From: Candidatus Kaiserbacteria bacterium RIFCSPLOWO2_01_FULL_51_21
GTDB taxonomy: Bacteria; Patescibacteriota; Minisyncoccia; Phycocordibacterales; 2-01-FULL-51-21
Reading direction: 5' to 3'
DNA length: 35,208 nucleotides
Assembly (NCBI GenBank): GCA_001781435.1
Contig: MFLV01000022.1
Location: 2,490-37,697 of the forward strand
Shown here: piece after piece, positions 27,871 to 28,053 of the stretch
Position numbering within the stretch: position 1 is the stretch's first letter
How the letters are laid out: each line of letters opens with the position of its first letter
Program-made: the position numbers and the translations under genes
Notes under the pieces: generated by a model
What the model was told of the DNA's origin: nothing
Databases searched by the model: none
What the model saw: the letters and a program-made list of their open reading frames with translations, nothing else

Positions 27871-28053
27871 ATATACCCCGCACCACTTTGGCACTTTCAG
27901 CAAAAGTATTGGCAAGTGAAAACAAGTTCTTTGGCGCCCTGCTTTAGTCTTGTCGGTATGCCAAAGTGGTGCGGGTTTACTCAACTCGCAGAAAGACACG
28001 GCTGTAGCGCCGTGGAGCTTCACGTTTGATTGTAAAAGTGGTGCGGGGTATAT
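27871..28053. repeat. 183-bp element with 19-bp perfect terminal inverted repeats
   Basis: ATATACCCCGCACCACTTT (27871-27889) and its exact reverse complement AAAGTGGTGCGGGGTATAT (28035-28053) bound the spacer before ligA. A third copy, TGCCAAAGTGGTGCGGG (27959-27975), lies inside and matches 17 bases of the left end. The right end contains the ligA -10 box. Palindromic repeat copy C (27985-28023) lies within. No ORF with coding signal is seen. Confidence 0.75.
27985..28023 (+). repeat. Palindromic repeat element, copy C (minimal, 39 bp)
   Basis: CTCGCAGAAAGACACGGC joined through TGTAGC to GCCGTGGAGCTTCAC. It has both ends of copies A and B but none of their interior, so it is the minimal hairpin form of the family. 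Confidence 0.7.

Follow-up and report, generated by a model that had tools for sequence, protein, structure and literature searches.

Introduction

The Rickettsia palindromic elements (RPE) are short palindromic repeats located in frame in protein-coding genes, and MITEs such as the Correia elements are non-autonomous sequences with terminal inverted repeats, target duplications and effects on promoters (PMC10969869). In CPR bacteria, insertions in rRNA genes have been described, some with GIY-YIG ORFs and others short and ORF-less; that survey leaves both classes unexplained, and inverted repeats, palindromes and hairpins go unmentioned in it (Tsurumaki et al. 2024, PMC11270868).

The CPR palindromes described here resemble RPE, by description, in that they also lie in frame in protein genes (rplB, pcrA, gatB and prepilin leaders); however, RPE are ~150 bp in length, whereas the CPR palindromes are ~26-44 or ~100 bp, have 4-bp direct repeats and have a candidate one-gene parent. 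Like MITEs, they are non-autonomous, with terminal inverted repeats and 4-bp duplications, but their likely parent encodes a GIY-YIG nuclease and no known transposase, and the short forms are almost entirely palindrome. They share hosts and genes with the rRNA insertions described by Tsurumaki et al. (PMC11270868); here, both classes are joined as one family bounded by terminal inverted repeats that also occurs outside rRNA. The intervening sequences (IVS) of rRNA are likewise stem-forming insertions in rRNA loops, whereas many CPR copies lie outside rRNA and have direct repeats. Homing endonuclease genes share the GIY-YIG domain with its conserved motif residues, but the CPR elements occupy many unrelated sites. 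A search of main texts in the open-licence literature returned no prior description, for CPR, of a GIY-YIG element associated with palindromes, terminal inverted repeats or MITEs, and an earlier report elsewhere is possible. We consider it likely that a repeat found upstream of ligA in a Candidatus Kaiserbacteria genome is part of a family of mobile palindromes that extends across the Patescibacteria.

The repeat upstream of ligA and its relatives

In the window, the whole 35,208-nt stretch of DNA analysed here, positions 27871-27889 (ATATACCCCGCACCACTTT) recur as an exact reverse complement at 28035-28053, and an inverted third copy of 17 bp lies between these outer arms at 27959-27975. Both the 19-bp terminal inverted repeat and the internal copy reported in the initial annotation were therefore borne out. 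The 13-mer AAAGTGGTGCGGG had six matches in the window with at most two mismatches (0.95 expected; 0/100 shuffles). Across the genome, 14 matches with at most one mismatch were found, against one for the reversed control, and the majority were arranged as short inverted pairs; the abundance of the 13-mer is far above chance. Another palindrome type in the window, CCCCGTTAG, was unrelated and showed no excess.

In this genome (629 kb, 28 contigs, ~92% complete), the 13-mer is mostly part of short near-perfect palindromes. Five exact palindromes were found (0 in controls), mostly with TATA on both sides. The palindrome on contig C10 is GTATACCCAGCACCACTTTGTATACAAAGTGGTGCTGGGTATAC, with relatives on C5, C11, C23, C24 and C28; their centres differ, and several remain palindromic. 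Near-perfect palindromes built from the family motif, CC(C/A)(G)CACCACTTT...AAAGTGGTG(C)(G/T)GGG, recur throughout the Patescibacteria, this genome included. Among 118 genomes of the order, the closest level of relatedness sampled, nine contained the palindrome and none the reversed control. When 397 genomes of the order were searched for CCCAGCACCACTTTT, 17 were positive, and the spacing of paired copies was commonly 97-106 bp.

In 84,980 species genomes, a scan revealed at least 119 stretches, and most of the named ones were from Patescibacteria; the lineages among the matches listed were Kaiser-, Taylor-, Komeili-, Falkow-, Magasanik-, Nealson- and Doudnabacteria and others. In the matches outside the Patescibacteria the CC-rich outer arms were largely absent, and these were treated as background. 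The copies elsewhere that the initial annotation had proposed to look for thus exist, both in the genome and across the phylum. With respect to its suggestion of a MITE-like insertion, terminal inverted repeats and multiple dispersed copies within one genome were present; the sharp ends, the further copies and, at the level of the family, 4-bp direct repeats agree with that suggestion, whereas a 183-bp unit is improbable and the delivery of a promoter doubtful.

Direct repeats flanking the palindromes

The element ends were placed five bases outside CACC (CCCAG, CCCCG, TCCAG and others). With these ends, exact 4-bp direct repeats flanked 41 of 101 copies, compared with a mean of 6.3 and a maximum of 15 in shuffles. 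The repeats were mostly of the form T-N-N-A (TTTA, TAAA, TATA, TCAA, TTGA and others). The excess persisted after copies with duplicate flanks were removed (20/67 versus 3.0, P<=0.0005) and after the further exclusion of prepilins (16/55 versus 1.8, P<=0.0005), and no inverted flank matches were found in the non-self-complementary subset of the stricter set. Palindromes near tRNA genes in a Yonathbacteria genome (G036) were omitted from these statistics because they are part of a conserved larger structure. Since exact 4-bp direct repeats flank 41 of 101 copies, the palindromes are, judged by their flanks, inserted DNA. The flanking duplications that the initial annotation had proposed to look for were found for the family, but the flanks of the window copy are imperfect (TATA on the left, TTTA on the right).

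Insertions in protein and RNA genes

Several copies were located in frame in essential genes. In rplB (L085), a 13-residue gap relative to the solved uL2 coincided exactly with the element and corresponded to a 35-bp element plus TAAA. Similarly, a 14-residue gap in pcrA/uvrD (L081) relative to a solved homologue corresponded to 38 bp plus TTTA. The alignment of gatB (L107) was broken at the element, and the copy in mnmA (L159) was within a variable stretch. Prepilin leaders were a hot spot, with copies located just before the GFTLIE processing motif. The length of the element plus 4 bp was a multiple of three in 14 of 27 coding copies; those in prepilins need not be, since a leader can use another start. 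In a tsaD frame (L152:2724-3917), we observed two different consecutive repeat-derived inserts (CHSERSEESR..LRSAQG and the palindrome).

Palindromes were also found in 16S rRNA, 23S rRNA and group I introns and at the edge of tmRNA; RNase P RNA was judged to be a host by flanking motifs only. The 4-bp repeats were absent from the rRNA and RNase P insertions. At apparently one site in 23S rRNA, the element replaced a variable hairpin in two genomes (L188 and L221). Rfam did not match the element itself to a group I intron: the introns that it identified either hosted the element (L056, L189) or lay beside it. The insertions occupied many unrelated sites instead of the one conserved homologous site of single-site homing.

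Association with GIY-YIG genes

A 321-bp pair in a 23S rRNA gene (L191) enclosed an intact GIY-YIG ORF. When GIY-YIG loci were chosen regardless of their ends, 12 of 29 were bracketed by exact inverted repeats of at least 14 bp, compared with 6 of 600 random placements. For the L221 protein, 19 of its 30 closest relatives in the class were bracketed (0/600 random placements), although one of the 19 (L243) is a local hairpin and not a true bracket. The bracketed elements were mostly 277-325 bp in length and contained one ORF, for a GIY-YIG nuclease of ~85-95 aa; their ends mostly began with a C-rich run and then diverged. Exact 4-bp direct repeats (TTCA, TCAA, TGTG and TGCA) were present at 4 of 28, with 0.49 expected (P=0.001).

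The encoded proteins retain the GIY-YIG motif residues (invariant Y5, Y16, G18, R26 and E53). Their nearest relatives of solved structure are UPF0213 (PDB 1zg2; E 1.3e-13) and SLX1 (E 8e-6). The ends of the MITE-like copies are shared with the GIY-YIG elements, and the encoded enzyme is not of a known transposase type. To our knowledge, GIY-YIG enzymes are nucleases and not transposases, and we know of no element bounded by terminal inverted repeats for UPF0213 or SLX1 proteins.

Two comparisons connect the long and short forms. In genome G179, a 206-bp copy matched the nuclease copy of 321 bp at 28 of the first 30 and 36 of the last 40 bases, and the shared sequence takes in the tail of the ORF. 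A second end type, CCCCACACTCA, was found on GIY-YIG elements of genomes G402 and G518 (L239 and L246), and short palindromes with this end were present in those two genomes and in none of 14 others (2/2 versus 0/14); of the four CCCCACACT palindromes in G402, two at contig ends seem to represent a single locus, so fewer than four are independent. On sequence comparison, the family, its ends, its 4-bp direct repeats, the in-frame insertions, the bracketed GIY-YIG genes and the ends common to long and short copies of one genome are apparent, and from this association we infer that the GIY-YIG protein may mobilise the palindromes. The parent is probably a single-gene GIY-YIG nuclease element of ~300 bp. 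In G179, a GIY-YIG gene (L204:1452-1793) is bracketed at both ends by TGTCATTCCCGCGAAAGCGGGAATCCAGT, a REP-like hairpin, and a similar core is nested in the 206-bp copy (L191:533-738).

No GIY-YIG gene bracketed by terminal inverted repeats was found in the Kaiserbacteria genome (~92% complete), and its sole GIY-YIG match, on C2, was without inverted repeats; thus, its palindromes are relics, unless they were mobilised by an agent that escaped the search. The palindromes could instead be mobile in trans via an unlinked transposase (Y1/IS200-type or DDE), with the GIY-YIG gene as a passenger or later invader. We regard this as somewhat unlikely: a Y1_Tnp gene is present in the genome and palindromes occur where no bracketed GIY-YIG gene was seen, but the association of the ends with GIY-YIG genes is tight and specific to the end type. 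IS200/IS605 transposition produces no target duplication, and with 4-bp direct repeats at the palindromes and no terminal inverted repeat near the Y1 gene of this genome, neither IS200/IS605 nor REP/RAYT was retained.

Proposed origin of the palindromes

A full copy of the preferred element would be ~277-325 bp long and consist of one small GIY-YIG nuclease ORF between a pair of terminal inverted repeats (CCCAG/CCCCG/CCGAG-CACCACTTTT and relatives). Internal loss would account for the non-autonomous copies, which measure either ~100 bp or ~26-44 bp, the smaller being almost pure palindrome. New copies would enter T-N-N-A sites and duplicate 4 bp there. Intergenic DNA, protein genes (when the frame is kept) and RNA loops would all tolerate them; in the loops, a palindrome would just lengthen a stem.

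With slightly less than even confidence, we propose that this is a minimal transposon of a new class, found in CPR: ~300 bp in length, with one GIY-YIG enzyme of ~85-95 aa acting as a transposase on palindromic ends, 4-bp duplications, and hairpin derivatives, some as short as ~26 bp, that find their way into rRNA, essential proteins and promoters. If so, one mechanism would cover the non-intron GIY-YIG insertions of CPR rRNA, the short ORF-less insertions and the in-frame inserts in essential proteins, and the element would be an unusually small self-contained one with terminal inverted repeats that uses a nuclease family not known as a transposase. The question of what moves these inserts would then become directly testable.

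Structure of the ligA locus

At the window locus, we favour a non-autonomous copy of ~100 bp followed by half of another (Table 1).

Table 1. Features of the region upstream of ligA in the window
Feature	Position	Strand	Basis
TATA on the left side, probable target tetramer of T-N-N-A class	27872-27875	.	Exactly the position, relative to CCCxG, of the 4-bp direct repeats of the family
Left terminal inverted repeat CCCCGCACCACTTTGGCA of putative ~100-bp non-autonomous element	27876-27893	+	17-bp perfect complement to 27959-27975
Interior (loop) of putative ~100-bp element, 65 nt, no ORF	27894-27958	.	
Right terminal inverted repeat TGCCAAAGTGGTGCGGG (third copy of the initial annotation)	27959-27975	+	Pairs with left arm
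Unique stretch separating element and half copy	27980-28033	.	
Small CACGGC/GCCGTG hairpin inside unique stretch	27997-28014		
TTGATT, -35-like, 17 nt before -10-like hexamer	28026-28031	+	Consensus match only
Putative solo half copy AAAAGTGGTGCGGGG, matching left half absent	28034-28048	+	
TATATT, -10-like box of ligA, includes target TATA	28049-28054	+	ATG 6 nt downstream, leaderless geometry
ligA, NAD-dependent DNA ligase	28061-30067	+	PF01653, E 7.9e-85

The left arm pairs perfectly with the third copy over 17 bp (CCCGCACCACTTTGGCA), leaving a 65-nt loop, and pairs with the right end over only 14 bp when the outer TATA is excluded. Given this inner pairing, and a size also seen elsewhere, 27876-27975 would be the ~100-bp element; its right arm is one terminal G shorter than the left and is followed by TTTA, an imperfect match to the left TATA. 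The copy at 28034-28048 would be half of another, because its inner sequence is different and it has no partner. The TATA at 27872-27875 and 28049-28052 was counted within the 19-bp repeat, yet it lies outside the element ends as the family defines them.

The 183-bp unit of the initial annotation is therefore probably not one element. In a rival interpretation, 27876-28048 as a whole would be one element of ~173 bp bordered on each side by a duplicated TATA, and the third copy would be a remnant half inside it, produced by a rearrangement or a nested insertion. The outer arms are perfect and TATA is present on both sides, but the stronger inner pairing and the clustering of other copies at ~34-44, 66-106 and ~280-325 bp make this unlikely; moreover, TATA is self-complementary, and a duplication is here indistinguishable from an inverted flank.

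The ligA promoter

The -10 box that had been assigned to the right end of the repeat is present as TATATT, but the TATA that it overlaps lies outside the element. Since this TATA target coincides with a -10 box six bases before the ATG, the -10 is probably the landing site of the element and not its cargo. The simplest account, from small numbers, would be insertion into -10 boxes that are restored by the 4-bp duplication. We infer that TATATT is the working -10 of ligA, and the order of events at ligA likewise: the TATA target would have belonged to this box, and duplication of the tetramer would have preserved a -10.

That the element carries and delivers the ligA promoter, as first suggested, is improbable. 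TATATT abuts the right end, and two further insertions in this genome (C10 and C24) have TATACT 6 nt ahead of an ATG, an arrangement that would suit delivery; however, the recurrent 6-base spacing also suits insertion into -10 boxes, the TATA outside the element is the target tetramer, and the flanking tetramer varies in other genomes (TTTA, TAAA, TCAA and TTGA), so no fixed -10 is carried. In addition, TANNNT peaks at -12 upstream of starts in this genome generally (8/55 genes).

The remaining reading, in which a regulator of ligA would bind the three copies as operators, is rejected as their origin: three copies do stand at one promoter, and the right one occupies the gap from the -35-like to the -10-like box, but the motif has no link to ligA and is found at unrelated genes, inside reading frames and in rRNA in many CPR lineages instead of being restricted to the promoters of a regulon, and its ends carry 4-bp direct repeats; a regulatory role co-opted later is possible.

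Additional observations

In the window and in L018-L025, Shine-Dalgarno motifs were few and TANNNT peaked 12 nt ahead of start codons, a combination that fits leaderless mRNAs and suggests that many mRNAs of this genome may be of this type.

In G036, eight palindromes (CGAGCACCACTTTT..AAAAGTGGTGCTCG) near tRNA genes (L044-L049) lie within a conserved, repeated and strongly folding structure, GGTTACTAA..GTACCGCTGGACGTCGAG[hairpin]CTCGGTTCGATTCC. Rfam gave no match at these palindrome positions, and the structure is possibly an unknown RNA.

Upstream of ligA, the window contains a cluster of pilin-like genes (two with an N_methyl motif) and a prepilin peptidase at 24155-27820; prepilin genes of other CPR are a hot spot for in-frame palindromes. 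Within this cluster, a 14-bp inverted repeat, TTAGCTTCGTTAGC, surrounds the start of ORF 27239-27820 (27216-27297). The ORF has a prepilin-like leader (..RRASSGFAMLF), and its 14-bp repeat is a possible second palindrome type. On the minus strand at 11762-11774, AAAATGGTTCGGG is followed by GTATACT just before a sensor-kinase-like ORF on that strand, and resembles a degraded half copy located at a further -10 box.
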